A stretch of 41,918 nt of DNA from a virus: positions 1 through 41,918 of IMG/VR virus record IMGVR_UViG_3300027770_000102. One strand, 5' to 3'. The position numbers and the translations under genes are program-made. This document shows, in pieces, positions 6,527 through 33,018 of the stretch. Positions within the stretch are counted from its first letter, which is position 1. Each line of letters begins with the position of its first letter. The notes beneath the pieces are model-generated. The model searched no databases. It had not been told where the DNA came from and saw nothing but the letters and a program-made list of their open reading frames with translations.

Positions 6527-6877
6527 ATGAACGCTGGAACATACAATATAATTTGCGAACAAGGTGCAACATTTCAACGAATAATAACGGTTGTAAATGC
6601 TGATGGAACTTTACCGGATTACAATACTTCAACCGCAAGAATGCAAGTAAGACCTAGCGTAGAATCACTTACAATAATCATTGAATTAACAACTGAAAAC
6701 GGAAGAATTACCTTATTAGATAATACAATTACCTTAAATATTATTGCAGATGATACAACAATTCTTGTTGCGGGTGCTTATAAGTACGATTTAGAAATTG
6801 AAACAGGTGCAGATGTAATTCGTTTAGTTCAAGGTAATTTTACAGTTTCACCTGAAGTTACAAGGGTAAACCCATAA
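6527..6877 (+). CDS. Tail-tip / fibre-associated small beta protein
   Basis: A 116-residue protein of a type I recall as common next to phage fibre genes. The recurring features are an N-terminal ICEQGATFQRIITV strand, the central TARMQVRPS motif, ELTTENGRITL, and the closing GNFTVSPEVTR. It probably forms a small beta-sandwich that joins baseplate and fibres. It is coupled to the next gene by TAATG at 6875-6879. The general family resemblance is good, but its function has not been clear to me from sequence. Confidence 0.6.
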   Translation: MNAGTYNIICEQGATFQRIITVVNADGTLPDYNTSTARMQVRPSVESLTIIIELTTENGRITLLDNTITLNIIADDTTILVAGAYKYDLEIETGADVIRLVQGNFTVSPEVTRVNP

Positions 6878-8043: not shown

Positions 8044-9051
8044 ATGGCAATTGAAATCCAAATTAGGCGAGATACAGCAGCAAACTGGACTAGTGTTGAT
8101 CCTACTTTAGCACAAGGCGAATTTGGTTTAGAAACAGACACAAACCAATTAAAAATTGGTGATGGTGTTTTGGCTTGGACTGCTTTAGCTTATTTTGGTG
8201 GTAGTGGAAATCCATTTGATCAAGATTTAAATACTACAGATGCAGTATCTTTTACTGGATTAACAAACAATGCGATTATTTATCCAACTGTAGACGGTAC
8301 AGCAGGGCAAGCAATTGTAACTGATGGTGCGGGAAATCTTTCATTTGCATCAGCAGCAAATCCCTTCGATCAATCACTTAATATTGCAGATGCAGTATCT
8401 TTTACTGGATTGACAAATAATTCAATAATCTATCCTGTTGCAGATGGAACAGCGGGTCAAGTAATAGTAACTGATGGTGCTGGTAATCTTTCATTTGGAA
8501 GTTATTTACCGCTTGCTGGCGGTGCGATGGATGATACTGCAATAGTCACTTTAAGCAACACCGGAACGGATAGAGATACGGAAATAGGTGGTTGGGGATT
8601 AGGAACGCAAAAAACCTCCGACAATGATTATTCTGCAACCTTTGAATACGATCAGATTTTAATTAAAGACGGAACGCAAACAACAACCATAAAAACAAAC
8701 ACTATCACCACAGGTGGATCATATATTGAGCGACAAGTTGCAGCAAGTTTTACCGCTGGGGTAATGACCTTAGATTGCAATTCCGCAAATGTTTTTACTT
8801 GTGCATTAACAGGCAATGTAACCACATTAACAATAAACAATATTCCAACATCAGGAAAAGCAATTGGAATCACTTTAATCTTAACTGCTGATGGAACTCA
8901 AAGAACTATTTCTTGGCCCGCATCATTTCTTTGGTCTAATGGAAATGCACCAATAATTACTGCAACTAATACAAAAAAAGATGCAATAGTATTTATGACT
9001 TATGATGCTGGAACAACTTTCTTGGCATTTGTGGCAGGGCAAAACCTATGA
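8044..9051 (+). CDS. Tail fibre with Mtd-type N-terminal domain
   Basis: A 335-residue protein. Its first 50 residues (IQIRRDTAANWTSVDPTLAQ, then GEFGLETDTNQLKIGDG) match the Mtd N-terminal / fibre-attachment domain seen in many phage fibres. Two 46-residue copies follow with a 50-residue period (DNA 8209-8346 and 8359-8496), each running NPFDQ...DAVSFTGLTNN...DGTAGQ...TDGAGNLSF. The C-terminal third contains FTCALTGNVTTLTINNIP and looks like a small beta-sandwich. The gene overlaps the next by ATGA. It is likely a side-fibre or shaft protein. Confidence 0.8.
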   Translation: MAIEIQIRRDTAANWTSVDPTLAQGEFGLETDTNQLKIGDGVLAWTALAYFGGSGNPFDQDLNTTDAVSFTGLTNNAIIYPTVDGTAGQAIVTDGAGNLSFASAANPFDQSLNIADAVSFTGLTNNSIIYPVADGTAGQVIVTDGAGNLSFGSYLPLAGGAMDDTAIVTLSNTGTDRDTEIGGWGLGTQKTSDNDYSATFEYDQILIKDGTQTTTIKTNTITTGGSYIERQVAASFTAGVMTLDCNSANVFTCALTGNVTTLTINNIPTSGKAIGITLILTADGTQRTISWPASFLWSNGNAPIITATNTKKDAIVFMTYDAGTTFLAFVAGQNL

Positions 9052-10391
9052 TAAGTAGAATGTTAATGATGGCAGCAAGTTCGGGAGTTTTGGGTACAGT
9101 TTCTAATGTATATGTAGCAAATGTTACATCAAATACTGTCTCAATCTTTGATAGAAATATTTCTTCTGGTGCATTGTCTGGATCGACTACGATTGCTGCT
9201 GGAAGTAATACTGAGGGCATTGCCATTTCATACGATGGGAAAAGCGTGTACGCAACAAATGCAGTCACTAATAATGTCTCAATCTTTGATAGAAATATTT
9301 CTTCTGGTGCATTGTCTGGATCGACTACAATTGCTGCGGGGATTAATCCATATGGCATTTGCATTTCAGCCGATGGAATAAGCGTTTATGCAGCGAATCA
9401 ACTTTCAAATTCTGTTTCGGTTTTTGACAGAAATACTTCTTCTGGTGCATTATCAGGATCAACTACGATTGCTGCGGGAACTGCTCCATCACAAATTTGC
9501 ATTTCAGCCGATAAAAAAAATGTCTATGTAACAAATCAAAACTCGGCTAATGTCTCGATATTTGATAGAAATACTTCTTCTGGGGTTTTGTCAGGATCAA
9601 CTAAAATTGCAACAAATTCGTTTCCAATTGGCATTGCCATTTCATCCGATGGGAAAAGCGTATACACAGCTAATAATGGATCAAATAATGTCTCGATATT
9701 TGATAGAAATACTTCTTCTGGGGTTTTGTCAGGATCAACTACAATTGCTGCGGGGATTAATCCACATGGGATTTGTATTTCAGACGATGGGAAAAGCGTT
9801 TATGTAACAAATGCAGGAACTACTACTGTTTCAATATTTGATAGAAATATTTCTTCTGGTGCATTATCAGGATCGACTACGATTGCTGCGGGAACTGCTC
9901 CAACTGCAATTTGTATTTCAGCCGATGGAAAAAATGTCTATACGACTAATAGTGGATCAAATACTGTTTCAATATTTGATAGAAATACTTCTTCTGGGGT
10001 TTTGTCAGGATCAACTAAAATTGCAACAGGGGCTAGCCCTTTTGCTATTGCCGTTTACTCTAAGCCTACACCGACTCCTACACCAACACCAACACCAACA
10101 CCAATTAATCCTTATTGCGTTTCTGGTGCTGGAACAACTTCAGCAAATGGGACTTATACATTTGTTGCAACCCCAACAAGTTTTTACAGTTATGGTTATT
10201 GGGAAAAAATTGGAGATACAGTTTACACTTTTGGGTATGATTCTAATGAAGAATGGTGGGTAATAAAAAACAATTCTACTTATATTTATGGTGCAAATGC
10301 ATCAGGTTACACAGTTCCGCCTTCGATGTGGTCTTATACTTACGGGATGGGAACTTCACCACCACCATATACGACTTCAGGAAGTTGCTAA
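9048..10391 (+). CDS. Seven-bladed beta-propeller receptor-binding protein candidate
   Basis: A 447-residue protein. Residues 20-341 are seven tandem 46-residue repeats of the YVTN type, each with VY(V/A/T)(T/A)N...VSIFDRN(I/T)SSG(A/V)LSGST and ICIS-x-DGK. Seven such units are expected to close into a beta-propeller. A Pro-Thr linker (about six PT pairs, 10066-10104) leads to a C-terminal domain of about 90 residues. That domain (CVSGAGTTSANGTYTF, WWVIKNNSTYIYG) resembles a domain I recall from phage structural proteins. The gene overlaps the fibre gene upstream by 4 bases and ends the tail block. Adhesion or receptor recognition is inferred from its place; lactonase activity is unlikely. Confidence 0.8.
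   Translation: MISRMLMMAASSGVLGTVSNVYVANVTSNTVSIFDRNISSGALSGSTTIAAGSNTEGIAISYDGKSVYATNAVTNNVSIFDRNISSGALSGSTTIAAGINPYGICISADGISVYAANQLSNSVSVFDRNTSSGALSGSTTIAAGTAPSQICISADKKNVYVTNQNSANVSIFDRNTSSGVLSGSTKIATNSFPIGIAISSDGKSVYTANNGSNNVSIFDRNTSSGVLSGSTTIAAGINPHGICISDDGKSVYVTNAGTTTVSIFDRNISSGALSGSTTIAAGTAPTAICISADGKNVYTTNSGSNTVSIFDRNTSSGVLSGSTKIATGASPFAIAVYSKPTPTPTPTPTPTPINPYCVSGAGTTSANGTYTFVATPTSFYSYGYWEKIGDTVYTFGYDSNEEWWVIKNNSTYIYGANASGYTVPPSMWSYTYGMGTSPPPYTTSGSC
9105..10070 (+). repeat. Seven tandem 138-bp repeats encoding propeller blades
   Basis: The seven blades are nearly identical at the DNA level, for example GATAGAAATA followed by TTTCTTCTGG or CTTCTTCTGG recurs every 138 bases. Variation is concentrated in the loop before VSIFDRN and in the stretch between GST-x-IA and ICIS. 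Such similarity suggests recent duplication or continuing gene conversion between blades. Confidence 0.9.
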
Positions 10392-10451: not shown

Positions 10452-10721
10452 ATGTTTGCAGACATAAATATCGTAGACATTTTTGAGCGATTCGGAGTAT
10501 CTTTAAGCTTTCTAATTTTTCTTTTATGGGTAACTTACAAAGGTTTTGGGTGGTTGGGTAGTAATATATTATTACCCTTGCATCAAAGGCATATGTTGTT
10601 CATAGATCGTCTTGAAAACTCAATTGGTGAAGTTGCCAAGGCACAAGCAGAAAGCTTAAGGATTTTGACAGAAGTTTTGAACTACACAAGAACTTTAAAA
10701 AAGGAAGTGAAAAATGATTAA
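10452..10721 (+). CDS. Holin-like membrane protein
   Basis: An 89-residue protein with one strong membrane segment at residues 15-34 (VSLSFLIFLLWVTYKGFGWL), followed by an amphipathic helix (RLENSIGEVAKAQAESLRIL) and a basic C-terminus. Short one-segment proteins with a coiled-coil tail are typical of BhlA-type and other small holins. It opens the block between fibres and the papain-like peptidase. TAGGAG lies before ATG 10452. It overlaps the next gene by 8 bases, so the two are coupled. Holin function is inferred from topology and place. Confidence 0.6.
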   Translation: MFADINIVDIFERFGVSLSFLIFLLWVTYKGFGWLGSNILLPLHQRHMLFIDRLENSIGEVAKAQAESLRILTEVLNYTRTLKKEVKND

Positions 10722-11022
10722 GTTTCCAGACTCATTACCAATGGATTCTATTCTTTTGGTTATAAATAAAATCAAAGGTACAAATGAACCGTCAAACAAA
10801 GAATTTGCTGAAGCTATTTGGAATATCGTTGGGTATGCAGCTAATCAGGTTATACCGGAAGATAAGCCGATTATTGGAGAAGTACAAGATTTAAACCTTG
10901 AAGATTTTGCAGCAATTTTAGAGCAAGCAATCACAATGAAAGATTCTCCTGAAGTTGCTAAACTTCCTTGGGCAAATATTTTAAAGATTGGTTTGAAGCT
11001 TTTGATTTCGATTTTTTTGTAA
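10714..11022 (+). CDS. Small C-terminally hydrophobic protein, probable lysis partner
   Basis: A 102-residue protein that is soluble-looking for its first 85 residues (an acidic helical middle, EDFAAILEQAITMKDSPEVA) and ends in a hydrophobic tail LPWANILKIGLKLLISIFL. It stops at a T7 run, just where an HNH frame without any start codon opens in the +1 frame. In related proteins as I remember them, a hydrophobic segment of this kind leads straight into an RxGSxWxxVRxxxLxxHPxC HNH domain. This gene may therefore be the N-terminus of an HNH protein, read through by frameshifting, or separated from it by an indel. AAGGAAG precedes ATG 10714. Confidence 0.6.
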   Translation: MIKFPDSLPMDSILLVINKIKGTNEPSNKEFAEAIWNIVGYAANQVIPEDKPIIGEVQDLNLEDFAAILEQAITMKDSPEVAKLPWANILKIGLKLLISIFL

Positions 11023-11299
11023 TAGGGGATCGGATTGGCACAAGGTAAGAAACAAGTATTTAGAAAAGCATCCAACTTGTGCAGCTTGTTTAGAAGTCGA
11101 TCCCGAAGATTTACAGATTCATCATGTTATACCGTTTTCAGTAGATGAAAATTTAGAATATGACGAATCTAATTTAATAACTCTTTGCCGAAAATGTCAC
11201 TTTCTTTTTGGACATTTAAAAAATTGGCGATCTTTTAACAAGTGGTGTAGGACAGATTGCAAAACAATGTCTGAACGAATAAGGAATAGACCATGCTAA
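11006..11299 (+). CDS. HNH endonuclease frame without a start codon
   Basis: The open frame runs from 11006 to the stop at 11297-11299 and has no ATG, GTG or TTG before the conserved region. It translates to a clear HNH nuclease: NRGSDWHKVRNKYLEKHPTC, AAC, IHHVIPF, LITLCRKCHFLFGHL, then KNWRSFNKW and an RIRNRP end. The two CxxC pairs would bind zinc, and HH plus N and H form the active site. The frame is +1 to the upstream gene, which ends at the T7 run at 11012-11018. A +1 frameshift, transcript slippage or a one-base indel would join them. Its last 7 bases overlap the next start. Phage HNH enzymes often assist DNA packaging or act as free nucleases. Confidence 0.7.
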   Translation, partial: FRFFCNRGSDWHKVRNKYLEKHPTCAACLEVDPEDLQIHHVIPFSVDENLEYDESNLITLCRKCHFLFGHLKNWRSFNKWCRTDCKTMSERIRNRPC

Positions 11300-11919
11300 A
11301 CATCGTTTTATTAGTGTTTCTGCAAATTCCAACAGTAGACTTACCCGCAAAGGTTACAGGGCAAATAGGGGCATTTATAACGATCCCTGCAAAGACAGAA
11401 GCGAAATCTGTTAAGTGGGTTTCGGTTGATAAAGGTTTAAATATTTTCCCTGTTGATCTTCTTAAAGATTCAAAAACTTTGATTGTTACGGCTCAATCTG
11501 AAGGTGCTTACAGGGTGTTTGCATATGTTGGTGATGCTTTTGGCCCTTCTGAACCAGCATTTACAACAGTTTTAATTGGTGAAAATCCTGAACCTATTCC
11601 AGTTAATCCAACTGATTCAGATATTACAAAAGCAGCATCAAAAGAAAATAAAGATTCGGTAAAATGGTTGTCTATGTTCTACGAAGAACTTGCTAAGGAA
11701 TGTCAGAAAAATGACTACGAATTTCTTACAGATGTTTTTAAGACAGCAAAAGCAAATATTAATAAACAATTTATGGAAAATGAACTTGCCAATCTTAGAG
11801 ATGTAATTGGAAAGAGATTAAATCAAAATCTTCCAAAAGATGCTTCATTGAAACTTGATCAAAAACTAAGAGATCTTCTTTCTAAAGAATTTAATCAAAT
11901 TGCAAAGGAGTTGAAATAA
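11293..11919 (+). CDS. Secreted Ig-like protein of planctomycete type
   Basis: A 208-residue protein with a short hydrophobic N-terminus (MLNIVLLVFLQIP) that may act as a signal peptide. It then has a beta domain: PAKVTGQIGAFITIPAKTEA, VKWVSVDKGLNIFPVDLLKD, SEGAYRVFAYVGDAFGPSEP. I recall this 'GKxVxWxxxDxGLxxFPxDLLKDSxT...YRxxAYxxxGDxxSEP' pattern from many planctomycete proteins and their phages, and it is the best host clue in the window. The C-terminal 100 residues are helical and charged. It overlaps the HNH stop codon and the following peptidase start (TAATG), so it is part of one operon. Function unknown. Confidence 0.65.
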   Translation: MLNIVLLVFLQIPTVDLPAKVTGQIGAFITIPAKTEAKSVKWVSVDKGLNIFPVDLLKDSKTLIVTAQSEGAYRVFAYVGDAFGPSEPAFTTVLIGENPEPIPVNPTDSDITKAASKENKDSVKWLSMFYEELAKECQKNDYEFLTDVFKTAKANINKQFMENELANLRDVIGKRLNQNLPKDASLKLDQKLRDLLSKEFNQIAKELK

Positions 11920-12878
11920 TGGATGAACCATTTGGAGGTTTTAAAAAACCTGTAGAAGTTGTAAACAATTTTGGTTGGTTGCCGATTGAATCGCAACCCC
12001 AAGAACTTCAAGATAAATTTAATGCAACATTAGTTCCATTTATGATTTCAGGGGAAGATGTTGAAGCTAAAGAAGCTCTATTATATAAGGTAGTTAATAA
12101 GGCTTGTGGCTATGATTTTTTCCCTTGGAATCAAAAAACTGGTTCTTGTGTCGCTCAAGGTGCTTTAGCAATGCTAGCTACATTGCAAGCGGTTGAAATC
12201 GTAACATTAAGACAATCTTACGAGGAATTTAGAGTTCCATTTATTCTTTATAATTATGGGCAATCTCGATCTCGTGGCGGTCTTCGTGGTAGTGGTGAAG
12301 GTTCTTTTGGTTCAAGCATGGCAGAATCTTTGAATGAAGATGGTTGCCCTCCCCTAGATCCTAGTTATCCTCAACCGATTAAAGAATCTGATGGTTCATT
12401 TACATTTGGTGCTGCTGCTGAAATGGCTTGGTCAAACGGTGATAAACCCCCAATTAATTTAAAAGAAAAAGCTAATCATTTTAAAATTAAATCCACAAGC
12501 AAACTTGTAAACGCTTTACAAGTTAAACAAGCTTTAACTAATGGGTATCCAGTTACTATTGCATCGGATTGGTGGGGTTTTAGTGATATAAAAATTAAAC
12601 CATCTGGAACACCAGCAATACAATTAGCTTCAAGAAATCAAACTTGGGGACATCAACAATCATGTTTGGGATTTACTACACATCCTGATTTTGGTCTAAT
12701 ATTCCTAATTCAAAATTCTTGGGGCAATGCTCATGGCACTCCCCCCGGTAATTTTGGAGAACCAAAGGGATCATATTGGATTAAAGAATCTGATATGGAT
12801 CGAATTTGCAAAGAAGAAGTGTTTTCTTTTTCAAATTTTGAAGGGTATCCAGCAAGAATTATTGACTGGAATTTGTAA
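11919..12878 (+). CDS. Papain-like (C1-type) cysteine peptidase
   Basis: A 319-residue protein with the papain arrangement: oxyanion Gln72 and catalytic Cys77 in NQKTGSCVAQGALAM, His245 in TWGHQQSCLGF, and Asn266 in LIQNSWGN followed by GSYWIK near the C-terminus. There is no signal peptide and no propeptide of normal size. The gene is coupled to the secreted protein upstream and lies close to the holin-like gene. Possible roles are lysis, cleavage of host cell-surface protein or a virion-associated peptidase. No amidase or lysozyme gene was found elsewhere in the genome, so an endolysin role deserves consideration. Confidence 0.8.
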   Translation: MDEPFGGFKKPVEVVNNFGWLPIESQPQELQDKFNATLVPFMISGEDVEAKEALLYKVVNKACGYDFFPWNQKTGSCVAQGALAMLATLQAVEIVTLRQSYEEFRVPFILYNYGQSRSRGGLRGSGEGSFGSSMAESLNEDGCPPLDPSYPQPIKESDGSFTFGAAAEMAWSNGDKPPINLKEKANHFKIKSTSKLVNALQVKQALTNGYPVTIASDWWGFSDIKIKPSGTPAIQLASRNQTWGHQQSCLGFTTHPDFGLIFLIQNSWGNAHGTPPGNFGEPKGSYWIKESDMDRICKEEVFSFSNFEGYPARIIDWNL

Positions 12879-13475: not shown

Positions 13476-14657
13476 ATGAGAATACAACCTGTACAGGGAA
13501 GCGGTAGTAATGTTGGCTTTGATGCTGCTACAGGTTCTATCACAATTTCAAATGAAGGTTTAACACCATTTCTTTATTTTAGAGTTAATAATAAAATACC
13601 TTATGGTGATGAAGTAGAAATTACAGGTTATTACAGGTATTACGATTTCTATGAAGTATCTTGGAACGGTACAGATTTTGAAGAAGTTATTGGTGGTTTG
13701 TTCGCTGATTTTGATTCTAGGGAAACTTGTCCTAAACTTTATGCAATGCCTTATGATATCGATGAACCAACTAATCAAGGTAATTTTGCTGGCAATGTAG
13801 GTGTATCAGGTCAAGGTTTAGTTTATGTTTCTAGATATCGTGGTACAGATTCAACTGATGGTAGAGATGTTTACGAATTCCTTAGAAGTTTAGATCCATC
13901 TTCAAAATGTTTTGTACAGATTGATGAAACAGGGATTGTTAACGGTTATTACCCTGCATTAGGTTTTGATACACTTTCTCAATCTTCTGCAAACATGGGT
14001 ACATTTTGGGGCAAAGATATCAACGGTGGTGAATTAGTTTCTGGAAGAAAATATGTTGGTTACTATGTTGGATCATCTTACAATCCATTTCCAAATGATC
14101 CTGTTAATTCAGATCCAAGACCTATAGTCACTTTATTAAATTCGCTTGTTTCCGGGCCTACAGGTATTACAGTTGTTACAGATGTTACTTGTGTTAATGG
14201 TGTTCTTGCAAATACCTATGCAACTTTTTACCCTTCTGAAACAGTACAGATTGCAGAAGATGCAAGAAAAAGTTTTCTTACTTTAAACGATACTCCTGAT
14301 TCTTATGCTGGTGTTGCAAATTATTATGTAGCTGTCAATCCAACCGCAACAGGTTTAAGCTTTACCTCAACAAATCCAGCTTCGGTTATTGTTCCATCAT
14401 TGTCGTTTATCAACCTTAAAGATTGCCCTCAATCTTATTCTGGAACATCTGGAAAAGTTGTTACATCAACAGGAAGCGGTTTAACTTTTACAACTGTTGC
14501 ATTTACTACACCTACAGATTCTTCAGTTGTACCAAAACAAAACGCATTAAATTCAACTATACAGTTTAAACTTGTAAATGATGAATTAACTCCCGGTGCA
14601 AATAAATATTATGGAACAAATTCATCAGGTGTTAAAGGTTGGTACGATTTACCATAG
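13476..14657 (+). CDS. Tail fibre protein with LTDTP-type repeats
   Basis: A 393-residue protein. The N-terminal 240 residues are globular, with many Tyr ([19 protein letters not shown]). The C-terminal third has two fibre repeats of the form [20 protein letters not shown] and [19 protein letters not shown], each ending in a TGLSFT-like strand. It finishes with [16 protein letters not shown], a standard phage fibre tip. Start ATG 13476 is the first in frame; the ribosome site (AAGG at 13464-13467) is weak. It stands after a terminator, so it may have its own promoter, none of which is obvious. Confidence 0.75.
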
Positions 14658-14665
14658 AGGAAACA

Positions 14666-17600
14666 ATGGCATATAGACCAACAAACAATATTAAAGAAAA
14701 TGTAATTCATCGAAACACAATCTTTGATGGTCAAGGAATAGTTTCTTGTTGTACTTGTGGATACTGCATTAAAAGAAATGAAGAATCAACTTTAGAACTA
14801 ACTAATTTTAAAGCAGCACCACCTATTATTAATGAAAATTCTATTGGATCAACGATAATAGAATTCTCTGATTATATGATTCCAGTAGCAAACAGCAGTT
14901 TTAGTGGATATGTTTTAACACCAAATCCAATACCACAAAGTGAAAACCCAACAGGTTTAGCAGATGGTTTAATTTATTATCCTTTTTTAAATTGCAATGG
15001 AGAAACAACACAAAGAGCAATGTATTTTTCTCTTTATTGGTATCCCCCATACAAATCTGGTTATTGGAAAAACCCTTCTTTTTACAATGAAAAAACAGCT
15101 TTTCCTTATGGTATTGCAGTTGTAAATGGAACAACTTCTTTTTCTACAGAAGCATCCGTTTATATTCCTTTAAATACATTTGAGACAAAAACTGGAAGTG
15201 GGCAATTAAATTTTTTTGCTTATGCAACATATTTGCAAAAAAATATATATGAAAACGGTTCTGATTCTGGTTCTTATGATAATTATTTATCATATATATC
15301 ATCCCATGATTTTAGTGTTGAAGGTGCAAATCCAAATGCAGAATGTTCAAACAACATATTAAAAATAATGAATCCTGTTTTTTTTCTTGATGTTTCCGAA
15401 TATCCTTTTTCTTATTTGCATCCTAATTATACATTTATTAGTTCAACAAAAAATATTTATACATCTCCTAATTCAAGCAATCTTGTATGTACTGGTTTTA
15501 GAGACAGTTACAATTGGTCTTATGATATGGATACTGGAACAAACAGACCTATTTTTAAAAGTGGTTATGTTTTAAATAAATTTTCAATTGATAAACAAGG
15601 GGTATTTTCTTCCAAAATTTCTGTAATAAATACAAACAGAATAGATTATTCTTCATATCAACAAGTAGGAGATAAACAAGTTGTAACAAAAATTAGTTCT
15701 TTAGGTACTATTGCAGCATATTATTCTGTAATATCTTCTACATATTTTGAAAACCAAGAATTAAATAATTATTTTAAAAATGGTCAATTTCAAGATATAT
15801 CTTATTATTATGATTACAGATATGTTAATGTGCCTTGTGGTGATCCATACAACGAAATATTTTTTGGAATTAAAAGAGATTATATATACTGGGAAGACCC
15901 TCACCGTATTAGAGGTTATTATGATTATCCTACAGATCCAACATTACCTATTAATTATACAGCTTCAAAAACAAACAGAACCCAAATATTAACTACTACA
16001 GATTCATCAGGTAGAACAACATTAACAATCAAGAATGTTTTGTGGACTGGTAAAACACTTTTAACAAATCTTTATGGGCATAATTCTGGTGGTAATAGAC
16101 CTAATCTTGCATTAGGAAAAGTTCCACTAACTTACCAAGCAATTTTAAAAGGTGGTTTTGAATCTGATATTATTGTTTCTTTTCAAAGTGTTCCATATTG
16201 CCAATTAGCAAATATTCCAGACAAATTAAAAAGAGTTACTGAAATAAAAGTTAATTTTGAGAATTATGAAAAAGTTCCACAATATAATATGTTGAAATAT
16301 TATCAAGCATTAAATTACTTTCAAGCTACACCGTTAATAGGAGATCCTTTTTATACAGAAGAAGCATTTAATAATTTTATGGTGCAGATGGCTTTTACTG
16401 ATTCTTATAAGGAATTTCAAAACATTGCTTTTTTACCACCTAATGTAAACGCAAGTAATGAATTTTTTGTTAGAAAAAATCCAGCATCAAACTCATATTT
16501 TAATGTAATAAAGAAAGATATCATTCCAATAGATCCCCCGGTTCTTACTTCTTATGTCGCATTTCCCGGTAGAGTTTATCCTGATTTTGGTGTTCCTGAT
16601 AGATTCAAAAGTTGTTTATTAATTAATGGTGATGAAGATGTTTGGAAAACAGGTAATGAAGTTCAATTTGTTGGATTAGATTACTTAGTAACCAATGGGG
16701 GTTCTGGATATACATCTGTTCCAACTGTTACTCTTTCTGGTGGTGGTGGTACAGGTGCAACAGCATATGCAACTATTAGCGGTGGTAAAGTTGTATCGGT
16801 TACAACTTACAATAAAGGAAAAGACTTTACATCAAATAAAACTGTAGTTATTTCTGGTGGTGGTGGTAGTGGTGCAACCGCTGTAGATATATCCTTTACT
16901 CCGTTTTATTCTATTTACATGGAAGAAATTAAGGATGAAAAGCAAACTGCTGGACAATCATTAATTAGAATTGCAACCACATTGGAAAATGCAAACAATG
17001 GAATTTACATTCCTAATGTTGGATTAGAAACACTATACAAAGACAAATATTTGTCAGTTAAATTTCTTTATGGTTTCAAAGATGTATCAATTGAAAATCT
17101 TCCAAGATATGAAAATGTAAATCCAAACAATATTGATCAGACTAATGTTAATGCAGATATTTTAGGTGCATCATATTCTACTAGCGGTAATTACCCAACT
17201 TTATTTAATAGTGTATTTGATTTTTCTTTTAGTGTATTACCTTCTAGTTTTTTATACAGTTATTTCACATTATCTATAAAGTTTTCTATGCCTGCAACTT
17301 ATCCTAATGTACCAATATATTTATCTAATTTTGAAATAAACCCCGAGGGTTCTGAATTTTATAAACAAGAGTTTGAAATAATATCATTAAGCCCATTAAA
17401 AATAAAATATCCTAAAATGAAATTTGGTAATGTTGATAGTTATTATAATTATTATTATTCTGTTCCAATTACAAATATAAATGTAACATTCCCTTGGTCT
17501 AGTATTGAATCGCATTTAACAGGTGCATTATTTTTTGGATTTCAATGCGATGTAATCATTGAAGAAGTTGTAAACGAATTTATTGAAGAAGCATTGCCAA

Positions 17601-17830
17601 TTGAATTTAATCAAATTCTTGAAGGTGTTCAATATATCGAAACATCAAACTTGATGAATTTTAGAAATCCAATGGAGATGATTAATCCAGAGCAATGTGA
17701 ACACATTGGAAAAGTAATCGACAGAAAAGATTGTAATTGTCCTAAGAAGTGGGTTCGCTTATGTGATGTTCATGGAAAAACGGATTGGAAGAAATGTATG
17801 CAATGCAAAGATTTTAGGGTGTCTGAATAA
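14666..17830 (+). CDS. Large fibre / virion protein with C-terminal Cys cluster
   Basis: A 1054-residue protein starting at ATG 14666 after AGAGGAAACA. An N-terminal CCTCGYC motif suggests metal binding. The middle is Tyr/Asn/Ser-rich beta structure. Around residues 680-755 lie two repeats typical of fibre beta-helices ([20 protein letters not shown] and [14 protein letters not shown]). The last 50 residues contain [19 protein letters not shown], then C-x2-HG-x7-C-x2-C, a probable zinc site. I recall similar Cys/His tails in proteins from Planctomycetota. Together with the preceding gene it is probably a host-recognition structure, but it could be a large virion wall protein. Confidence 0.65.
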
Positions 17831-23260: not shown

Positions 23261-24880
23261 TTAAACTGATACTTTTTCAAACTGGTACGAATCAATCTGG
23301 TAATAACCTTTTTCGTTTTTGTGTGCGATTATACCTATTGGTTTTGGTAAAGCATCTAAAAAATCTACGGATTGGATTTTATTTTTATCAAGATGCCAAT
23401 GATGTTTAGGAATATCTAATGTAAGATTCTTTAGCCATTTCCATACAGAAAATTCTAAACCTGATTTTAATGAATGAAATGATTTAATTAATGTTCCTGA
23501 TAAAGTTTCATGGGTTTCCATAATACAGGGTTCTGCTTGTGGGTGTTTCCTGTATATGGAATAAACGCTCGAAACTATGTCAAATTCTCTAGGTTTCATT
23601 CCGTTTAGAATATCTCCCTTACTTTGTTGATTACTCAATTTAGATGATATTTCAGGGGTTTCATGCCTTGGTTTGACATACCCGCAACTTGGGCAAATTG
23701 GGATATGAATCTTGTAAACAAGTTTGCAAGCTGGACATTTCTTTACCTTTGCTGAAGGTATTTCAATCCCTTTTGCAGATACTTCTATTTGATCGATACA
23801 ACCATGTCTAATAGCATTATCACCATAATCAAGAACTAAGCAGTTTTGTTTACCCTCATTCAACCTGAACCCTCTCCCAACCATCTGATACCATAATCCT
23901 TTGCTCATTGTGGGTTTCATTACAACAACACAATCAATATTGGGTGCATCAAATCCAGTTGTTAAAACTGCAACATTTACCAACCATTTATAATTATTTT
24001 CCCTGAATCCATTAATTACGCAATCTCTAATAGCGGGGTGTGTTTCTCCTGTTATTATGTTTGCTCTTTGATTTTGTTTCTTTAGTTCATCAAGAATCAT
24101 TTCAGCATGGCGAACAGAAGTTGCAAAAACTAAAACTGAATTTCTATCTGTAGCTTTTTTGATTGCATCGTTAACACCTGATTGAACAAGTTCTTCAGTT
24201 TCAAGAACTTTGTTTAAATCAGTATCTAAAAATTCTCCCGCACGAATTCGCACATTTTTTAAATCAGGTGAATCAGATGCAAATGTAATCAATGGTGAAA
24301 GGTATCCATCTGTTATTAAATCTTTAACTCCGATTGCATAACAACAATCATCAAAGGTTTTGTTCTCCCCAAATATAATCCCGCTTTGCAATCTGTATGG
24401 TGTAGCTGTTAACCCAATAACCTTTAGCCTTGGGTTTCTAATCTTCAAACATGATAAAAATTTCCGGTACATTGTTTCTTTATTCTGACTAATCAAATGG
24501 CATTCATCAATCATTACAAAATCTAATACACCAAAAGAATCAGCTTTACGATATACGGATTGAATACCCGCAATTGTTAACGGTTTGATTTCTTTTCGTT
24601 TCATTGATGCTGAAAAGATTCCAATTGATTGAACTGGTAGACCAGTTGCAACAGCATACCCTTTACAGGTATTTTCTGATTGCTCTAATAGTTCCTTTAC
24701 ATGGGAAAGAATCATCCCCTTGCAATCATGGTTTCCTTCAAATGATTTACGGATTACTTCAGCCATTACCCTAGTTTTTCCCCCGCCTGTTGGAATAACT
24801 ATTACAGTTGATTTACTAGGGTTGTCTTGATGAAACTGGAATAAAGCATCTACAGAATCTTGTTGGTATTTTCTTAACAT
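23261..24880 (-). CDS. Superfamily 2 DEAD-like helicase
   Basis: A 539-residue helicase. Motifs in order: Q-like LRKYQQDSVDAL, I IPTGGGKTRVM, Ia ILSHVKELLEQ, II MIDECHLI (DECH), III GLTATPYR, IV VLVFATSVRHAE, V VNVAVLTTGFDAPNIDCVV, VI YQMVGRGFR. The C-terminal part has a zinc ribbon, CPACKLVYKIHIPICPSCGY. This layout resembles RadD/YejH-like and phage DNA repair helicases. It overlaps the GP88-like gene upstream by 7 bases and precedes the primase-helicase, so it probably takes part in replication or recombination. Confidence 0.9.
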   Translation of the reverse strand: MLRKYQQDSVDALFQFHQDNPSKSTVIVIPTGGGKTRVMAEVIRKSFEGNHDCKGMILSHVKELLEQSENTCKGYAVATGLPVQSIGIFSASMKRKEIKPLTIAGIQSVYRKADSFGVLDFVMIDECHLISQNKETMYRKFLSCLKIRNPRLKVIGLTATPYRLQSGIIFGENKTFDDCCYAIGVKDLITDGYLSPLITFASDSPDLKNVRIRAGEFLDTDLNKVLETEELVQSGVNDAIKKATDRNSVLVFATSVRHAEMILDELKKQNQRANIITGETHPAIRDCVINGFRENNYKWLVNVAVLTTGFDAPNIDCVVVMKPTMSKGLWYQMVGRGFRLNEGKQNCLVLDYGDNAIRHGCIDQIEVSAKGIEIPSAKVKKCPACKLVYKIHIPICPSCGYVKPRHETPEISSKLSNQQSKGDILNGMKPREFDIVSSVYSIYRKHPQAEPCIMETHETLSGTLIKSFHSLKSGLEFSVWKWLKNLTLDIPKHHWHLDKNKIQSVDFLDALPKPIGIIAHKNEKGYYQIDSYQFEKVSV

Positions 24881-31980: not shown

Positions 31981-33018
31981 TTATAGTTTTGAAATCCATT
32001 GATCATAGATTCTTTTAACGATTTGTGCCATCATCACCGGGGGAACGCTCATGCCAACTATGTATTTAACTTTATTTACAAGAAAATTATAATCTTGCGG
32101 ATAACTACCACCTAATTTTAATTCTGTTTTTGTTAAAGTCCTTATTTTTTCGTAATGGTATCCGCATCCTCCTTTAGTATTTGCTGTTATCGTTTGCAAT
32201 GGTTTATTTCTATCAACTTTGTGATAAGAAAAAAAACTACCTTTTTCGTGAGCATCTGAAAAATCTCTACCTTCTTTTACATAAGGGTAAAGATTTCTTA
32301 CTGATGGATAAACTTTTGATTCTCCAACATCAGCATCAAAATCTTCAATTTCCAAAAATGGTATTTCGCTTTCATTAAATTCTAAATCTAAATAAGGTGC
32401 AATTGTAAACAGGTCTACAGGTTTAAGAAATGGTTTTGCAATGTCTTTTCGCATAGCAATAAAAAATACTCTTTCTCTTTTTTGAGGAACTCCCATTCTT
32501 GAAGCATCTAATAAAAAATGCTGGCAATAATAACCAGCATTTTCAAATTCATCATAAATTTTTCTTACATATTTTTTTGCTTCTCCCATTAACAAACCTT
32601 TTACATTTTCTGCAATTACAACCTTTGGTTGAAGTTCTTTAGCTAAATAAATAAAATCAAAAAATAATGTATCTAATACTTGTAATTCTTGGCCTTCTGT
32701 AAATACCTTTTCTTTTCCCCAATCTTTTTCTCGATTTCCTACCATTGAAAAACTAGAACAAGGGGGAGAACCATCAAGAATATCAAGATCATAAAGTTCT
32801 TTAGGTAAATCTTTTCGCCTTGCAAAAGTTACAATTGATTCTAAAAAACTATATTTTGGCTTATGGTTCTCCTTGTAAACATCTAACATTTTAGGATCAA
32901 TTTCATTGCATCCTAATACATCAAACCCAGCTAACTTGTAACCCATTGTTGAACCCCCGCCACAGGCAAAGCATGAAAATACCTTGCCTTTATCTTTTGA
33001 AAAAACAGTATCTTTCAA
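31981..33018 (-). CDS. dcm: DNA (cytosine-5) methyltransferase
   Basis: A 345-residue orphan C5 methyltransferase. Motif I is FSCFACGGGSTMGY, motif IV DGSPPCSSFS with catalytic Cys87, motif VI VVIAENVKGLL, motif VIII MGVPQKRERVFFIAM, and motif X VKYIVGMSVPPVMMAQ near the C-terminus. The start is probably TTG 33018, because no ATG exists in frame upstream of motif I. The target cannot be told from the variable region. No restriction enzyme gene lies next to it, so self-protection against host restriction is likely. The enzyme should be considered with the absence of CCWGG and GGWCC sites in this genome. Confidence 0.9.
   Translation of the reverse strand: MKDTVFSKDKGKVFSCFACGGGSTMGYKLAGFDVLGCNEIDPKMLDVYKENHKPKYSFLESIVTFARRKDLPKELYDLDILDGSPPCSSFSMVGNREKDWGKEKVFTEGQELQVLDTLFFDFIYLAKELQPKVVIAENVKGLLMGEAKKYVRKIYDEFENAGYYCQHFLLDASRMGVPQKRERVFFIAMRKDIAKPFLKPVDLFTIAPYLDLEFNESEIPFLEIEDFDADVGESKVYPSVRNLYPYVKEGRDFSDAHEKGSFFSYHKVDRNKPLQTITANTKGGCGYHYEKIRTLTKTELKLGGSYPQDYNFLVNKVKYIVGMSVPPVMMAQIVKRIYDQWISKL

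Follow-up and report, generated by a model that had tools for sequence, protein, structure and literature searches.

The window, a 41,918-nucleotide stretch of viral DNA (positions 1 to 41,918 of IMG/VR record IMGVR_UViG_3300027770_000102), encodes a protein built of YVTN repeats directly behind a tail fiber gene, which raises the question of what such a protein does at that position. An earlier note on this DNA had proposed it as a phage receptor-binding candidate, and our analyses support the proposal along three independent lines: the slot that the gene occupies is hypervariable, its occupants elsewhere include GP38- and lectin-type proteins, and amino acid variation between blades falls on one face. 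Very probably, the protein is an exchangeable receptor-binding adhesin capping the tail fiber tip, a reading that is well supported, at the level of sequence, by genomic context and comparison.

Table 1. Features of the propeller locus and its flanks (window positions)
Feature	Position	Strand	Basis or remark
Small conserved gene, phrog_1084	6527..6877	+	Weak match: L-shaped tail fiber assembly; constant 5′ flank
Fiber-like gene, 387 aa	6877..8040	+	70-95% conserved in 16 relatives
Tail fiber gene with Mtd_N (PF18454) and C-terminal tip domain	8044..9051	+	Pfam, PHROG, relatives
Fiber-tip domain, 107 residues, ending ..AFVAGQNL	8728..9048	+	phrog_9017 tail fiber; alignment; proposed docking site
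Propeller gene (putative adhesin), 447 aa	9048..10391	+	Starts within 4-nt overlap with fiber gene 8044-9051
N-terminal motif MISRMLMMAA, proposed docking peptide	9048..9077	+	Motif enrichment in tip-adjacent genes
Blade unit 1, strands B-C-D then A	9108..9245	+	Sequence repeats, AlphaFold2
Blade unit 2	9246..9383	+	Sequence repeats, AlphaFold2
Blade unit 3	9384..9521	+	Sequence repeats, AlphaFold2
Blade unit 4	9522..9659	+	Sequence repeats, AlphaFold2
Blade unit 5	9660..9797	+	Sequence repeats, AlphaFold2
Blade unit 6	9798..9935	+	Sequence repeats, AlphaFold2
Blade unit 7	9936..10073	+	Sequence repeats, AlphaFold2
Pro-Thr linker, overlapping last residues of unit 7	10059..10109	+	Sequence; low pLDDT
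C-terminal Cys-bracketed domain, CVSGAG..NGTY..SGSC	10110..10388	+	Sequence; starts ~10110
3′ constant flank: genes of 89, 102, 208 and 319 aa	10452..12878	+	53-98% identity in relatives

The repeat architecture claimed by the earlier note was borne out. Exactly seven 46-residue YVTN units span 9108-10073 with every spacing 46. Each unit follows the pattern VYVTN-loop-VSIFDRN-loop-ALSGSTTIAA-loop-PxGICISADGKS, corresponding to strands B, C, D and then A; the ring is closed by the final strand A of unit 7 with strands B-C-D of unit 1, and the last few residues of unit 7 extend into the Pro-Thr linker. The best Pfam match is PF10282 (Lactonase, 7-bladed propeller), at 183.2 bits against a cut-off of 21.7 (E 1.1e-53), which puts the repeats far beyond chance; among PDB sequences, the protein most closely matches 1l0q, a YVTN surface-layer protein from an archaeon (5e-40). 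Structure prediction, which had been suggested as a check, gave an AlphaFold2 model (22 aligned sequences) with 28 strands in residues 19-336 at a pLDDT of ~93. In this model, seven four-stranded blades close as a ring, as in propellers of the YVTN/PF10282 type. Foldseek matched it to the 7-bladed propellers 6nau and 1ri6 with TM scores of 0.89 and 0.86, respectively, both by target length, and to the designed 7-bladed v31WRAP-T (7bid) with a TM score of 0.83. Residues 1-16, the linker and the C-terminal domain were predicted with low pLDDT. The linker and the distinct C-terminal domain are present as the note had described. The latter is mobile, forming a separate small ORF in the phage contig L005 and the N-terminus of another fiber protein in L045, and the search found no annotated phage relative of it. 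Extremely long Pro-Thr or Thr-Lys-Pro repeat stalks follow YVTN propellers in L099 (4190-6580) and L092 (5920-8829).

The 4-nt overlap couples translation of the propeller gene to that of the fiber gene ending in the tip domain. A fiber query related to this domain matched 239 phage records, and a profile search of the domain against the PDB returned no useful match. The body of the fiber contains a tandem module of ~50 residues, NPFDQSLNIADAVSFTGLTNN..GNLSFAS ("NPFDQ..LSFAS"), the copy number of which varies between close relatives, with two copies in the window (8044-9051) and up to five in L045 (8159-9253); another Mtd_N fiber carrying it is L041:8168-9475. This copy number may set the length of the fiber. 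The propeller gene had also been called the last gene of the tail block. It does adjoin the fiber gene, but it does not end the block: ORFs 13476-14657 and 14639-17830 have local matches to tail or virion-structural PHROGs, and tail-related genes thus resume downstream, after the short block at 10452-12878 that is common to relatives.

The 387-aa gene also defines the set of 16 relatives, whose flanks were compared wherever the contig extends far enough. A variable cassette is bounded upstream by the 3′ end of this 387-aa gene, which is preceded by a gene (6527-6877) that is 78-96% identical in relatives. Near-identical relatives keep 78-98% identity in the flanking genes, whereas what lies between those genes is replaced altogether. 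Thus, L041 and L042 retain the fiber and the N-terminus MISRMLMM, with a propeller only 25% identical to that of the window, and L043 and L044 have an unrelated 1482-aa collar-domain fiber in the slot, with fibB 92% and s102 98% identical. Across relatives with a different slot gene (L041, L043), identity is 92-95% for fibB, 97-98% for s102 and 93-94% for pep. Elsewhere the slot holds BspA-type LRR proteins (L052, L053), a repeat protein judged by eye to be beta-helix-like (L048), a long array of "YGTDKAIFGYG" repeats (L049) or two propellers (L050). The slot is hypervariable between constant flanks.

A scan for the tip domain, combined with local searching, located 128 places with 55 unique next genes. 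About 20 of these 55 encode YVTN propellers. Eleven others encode six-repeat "AIFGYG" proteins, whose profile matches the Photorhabdus PLL2/PHL propeller lectins at 7.6e-13; it is this sequence similarity to PLL lectins that suggests that they, too, are propellers, the AlphaFold2 model of one such occupant reaching a pLDDT of only 42. Further occupants include LamG (L157), DUF7483 (L166), SBBP, LVIVD and SGL-type propellers, Lcl_C, and, in L171, a GP38 tail-fiber adhesin (PF05268, 27.2 bits against a Pfam cut-off of 25). In cultured phages, the gene behind the tip encodes a tagged DUF7483 protein in Roseobacter phages CRP-13 and CRP-603, a glycine-rich protein in Microcystis phage Mel-JY34 and a large fiber protein with annotated glycosidase domains in Escherichia coli phage DrSchubert, with a similar one in FV3.

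Most of these next genes begin alike, although the proteins are otherwise unrelated, with MPISRKIMG, MISRMLMM, MIYRYLMM, MSIERALM, MSVERQLMM, MSVIARNLMM and similar sequences; the tag of CRP-603 is MSNVKKLMM. A simple tag pattern occurs in 39 of the 55 unique next genes, a figure that overstates the number of independent cases as these genes are not phylogenetically independent, compared to 23 of 900 background ORFs. Of these 23, six or more are copies of the same genes with a wrongly called start, and one is the CRP-603 gene. Tag-less occupants are found in L171, L177 and L116 and among the glycosidase-like fibers of FV3 and STsAS. The codons of the tag differ between members, indicating that it is conserved at the protein level; a nucleotide-level cause of the motif, such as a recombination site or ribosome-binding site, is unlikely, given these synonymous differences. 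From its recurrence we infer that the shared motif is a docking peptide, and the propeller would belong to a large assortment of tip adhesins that can stand in for each other, united by a fiber-tip domain and a short N-terminal tag.

The expectation that variation would be focused on loops proved right and can be sharpened to the BC and DA loops, not CD. In a set of 92 complete blade units from 19 propellers, mean entropy reached 2.62 bits for BC loops and 1.97 for DA loops, compared to 0.59 for CD and 0.99 for AB, and was 2.29 bits in BC and DA combined versus 0.89 elsewhere. The difference between top and bottom loops gave a permutation p of 0.0004 for the 92 units and of 0.011 for the window alone. 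Between the window blades, pN was 0.52 in BC and 0.45 in DA versus 0.03-0.09 in C, CD and D; pS was 0.2-0.6 throughout the unit. When the window is taken by itself, nonsynonymous differences are also seen in strand A and the AB loop (pN ~0.33), partly because unit 7 extends into the linker. In standard propeller topology, BC and DA loops lie on one face and AB and CD on the other. On this topology, which we used for face assignment in place of model coordinates, amino acid variation between blades appears to be concentrated on one face. The propeller of the window is broken at AB, giving seven whole units, and tip-adjacent YVTN relatives are broken at CD, with a 26-residue D-A half, whole units and a 20-residue B-C half; the window propeller is thus a circular permutation of these relatives. 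Since the AB and CD breaks are both lower-face connections, by standard topology the termini, and with them the tag, lie across from the variable loops, on the other face, in both permutations.

The blades had further been described as near-identical in DNA, which was overstated, as they are 62-83% identical in pairwise comparisons, with a mean of 73%. Blade DNA is nevertheless more alike within a gene (72%) than between genes at the same blade index (62%), and the framework codons 11-32 more so (81% within versus 65% between genes). The higher identity within genes indicates homogenization or recent amplification of blades, processes described for propellers generally (PMC9218822, PMC6805158). 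When blade number and loops were compared among relatives, as had been proposed, nearly all other tip-adjacent YVTN propellers had seven blades; a further ORF of L050 specifies a propeller of six blades. The seven-bladed propeller of L139 (4324-5322) differs from the five-bladed one of L140 (4324-5049) and L138, which come from two metagenomes, by 273 nt, exactly two blades; the sequences are identical over 4 kb upstream and have a 121-nt repeat identity at the junction. This difference reflects either recombination between blades or collapse during assembly. Together, the homogenization within genes and the two-blade deletion in a relative give indirect support, at the sequence level, to blade recombination.

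These observations suggest a mechanism in which the N-terminal peptide MISRMLMMAA would dock into the trimeric fiber tip, the conserved lower face would hold the propeller, and the variable upper face, formed by the BC and DA loops, would bind a ligand on a surface, for which a glycan or an S-layer-like polymer is the likeliest candidate. Because the loops are present in seven copies, such a face would be multivalent. The C-terminal domain may be a second, separately shuffled binding module. Host range could then change by two routes, the fast re-sorting of loops through recombination or gene conversion between blades and the replacement of the whole adhesin domain behind a constant docking peptide. 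We consider it evenly balanced whether a plug-and-socket that works regardless of fold is common to the fiber tips of many phages, so that a propeller, a lectin or another repeat fold could each take the place of the others, and blade shuffling would further diversify the propellers. In such an arrangement, a conserved tip ending ..GGQNF would accept any adhesin tagged with M-x(1-6)-R/K-x-x-(L/I)-M within its first ~10 residues.

The gene order is also that of T4 gp38 and Tfa, whose genes likewise lie directly downstream of fiber genes, and T4 gp38 is a chaperone released after assembly of gp37 (PMC12892980). By analogy, the propeller might be an assembly chaperone that covers the tip only during folding and is gone by the time of infection, and a hypervariable chaperone could co-vary with its fiber. 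However, the tip is conserved while the fold in the slot changes completely, the opposite of chaperone-client co-variation, and neither the concentration of diversity on one propeller face nor the lectin and adhesin folds of the slot occupants fits a chaperone, making this role quite unlikely. The standing of PF10282 as best Pfam match and the presence of 6-phosphogluconolactonases among the PDB matches could instead point to a lactonase- or 6-phosphogluconolactonase-like enzyme, or a captured host metabolic gene, without a structural role. We regard this as very unlikely: among seven blades that are almost equivalent, no asymmetric catalytic pocket is obvious, the closest PDB sequence match is the surface-layer protein, and the gene lies in a fiber operon, starts with the proposed docking motif and gives way to unrelated folds in relatives. 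Blade symmetry and genomic context thus argue against lactonase activity. Neither outcome that the note had named as refuting was encountered: the predicted structure closes as a propeller, and no homolog of the propeller that we examined was seen to have a non-virion function in a phage.

The likeness in fold and repeat type to surface-layer YVTN proteins, and of slot alternatives to glycan-binding propellers, would also suit a decoration of the virion for attachment to surfaces other than the host, such as mucus, algal or particle glycans or S-layer material, which would place the phage near its hosts without determining specificity; several adhesin ORFs occur at once in relatives, for example the two propellers of L050. 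This, too, is unlikely, as the propeller gene is coupled directly to the fiber tip and the slot of L171 holds a member of the GP38 family, studied members of which set host range (PMC12892980).

By function and position, the receptor-binding adhesin proposed here would be closest to the GP38 adhesins, outside that sequence family. The gp38 protein of T2 interacts with gp37 through its N-terminus and binds the receptor with its hypervariable loops (PMC12892980). Like GP38 of the T2/S16 type (PF05268), the window protein is encoded by a separate gene directly downstream of the distal fiber gene, and in L171 a PF05268 protein takes the equivalent place after the same tip domain. In contrast, GP38 is a polyglycine-II sandwich and the window protein a seven-bladed propeller without a PF05268 match in a Pfam search; the N-terminal tag shared by proteins of the window type is only ~9-12 residues, and their diversity lies in repeated blade loops. 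With YVTN/lactonase propellers (PF10282; S-layer 1l0q) the protein shares fold and repeat type, but it differs from them in its phage fiber context, high internal symmetry, N-terminal docking motif, mobile C-terminal domain and one-face diversification. The Photorhabdus PLL/PHL proteins are repetitive seven-bladed propeller lectins with several fucose-binding sites (PMC5584973, PMC6943638, PMC6797808). They resemble the "AIFGYG" slot occupants, although the phage versions have six repeats and a docking motif, and no PLL/PHL protein is among the PDB sequence matches of the window propeller. Recently amplified repetitive propellers have near-symmetric blades that arose by amplification, and viral members are mentioned; a fiber-tip role, one-face variation and adhesin exchange are not among the features described in the available text of these reports (PMC9218822, PMC6805158). 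The upstream fiber gene shares its Mtd_N domain with Mtd of BPP-1, whereas the binding module of the window would be a separate propeller gene and not a C-type lectin targeted by a diversity-generating retroelement (DGR). DGR-driven variation, considered on account of Mtd_N, was rejected, as no PF00078 reverse transcriptase match was found in the record, which may be incomplete. In the open-license literature we found no description of phage YVTN or propeller tip adhesins.

If the receptor-binding reading is correct, these phages would change host range with the fiber body untouched, a constant tip and short tag permitting exchange of adhesins of any fold, and the repeated blades would provide a second, finer way to reshuffle the binding face. 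Receptor-binding genes would then be predictable by position and tag instead of by sequence similarity, dependence on which is the main obstacle to finding them in uncultured phages. As the tip domain and tag are also present in cultured phages, such as Roseobacter phage CRP-603, the reading is directly testable.

Short terminal motifs recur more widely in fiber cassettes. In L050, L107/L108, L121, L129, L168 and others, successive fiber ORFs end in "[ILV]DGG[NTS]F*", and the ORF that follows usually starts with "MANTIRIKRR", "MANTIKPKRS" or "MANxxKIKQS", resembling the start of Mtd_N; the pattern suggests that fibers are built from serial segments linked via such motifs. In the 3′ flank, the 319-aa gene looks papain-like by its conserved motifs, and a similar pair to it and the 208-aa gene (11293-12878) is found in the more distant phage L005, so that the two are apparently conserved as a pair. 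The two MAG contigs matched with the papain-like gene are assigned to different phyla (L110, Flavipsychrobacter; L111, Rhodobacteraceae), and the disagreeing assignments may be binning errors. A C5 cytosine methylase and a helicase of the ResIII/DEAD type are among the other proteins of the record, encoded at 31981-33018 and 23261-24880 (minus strand).
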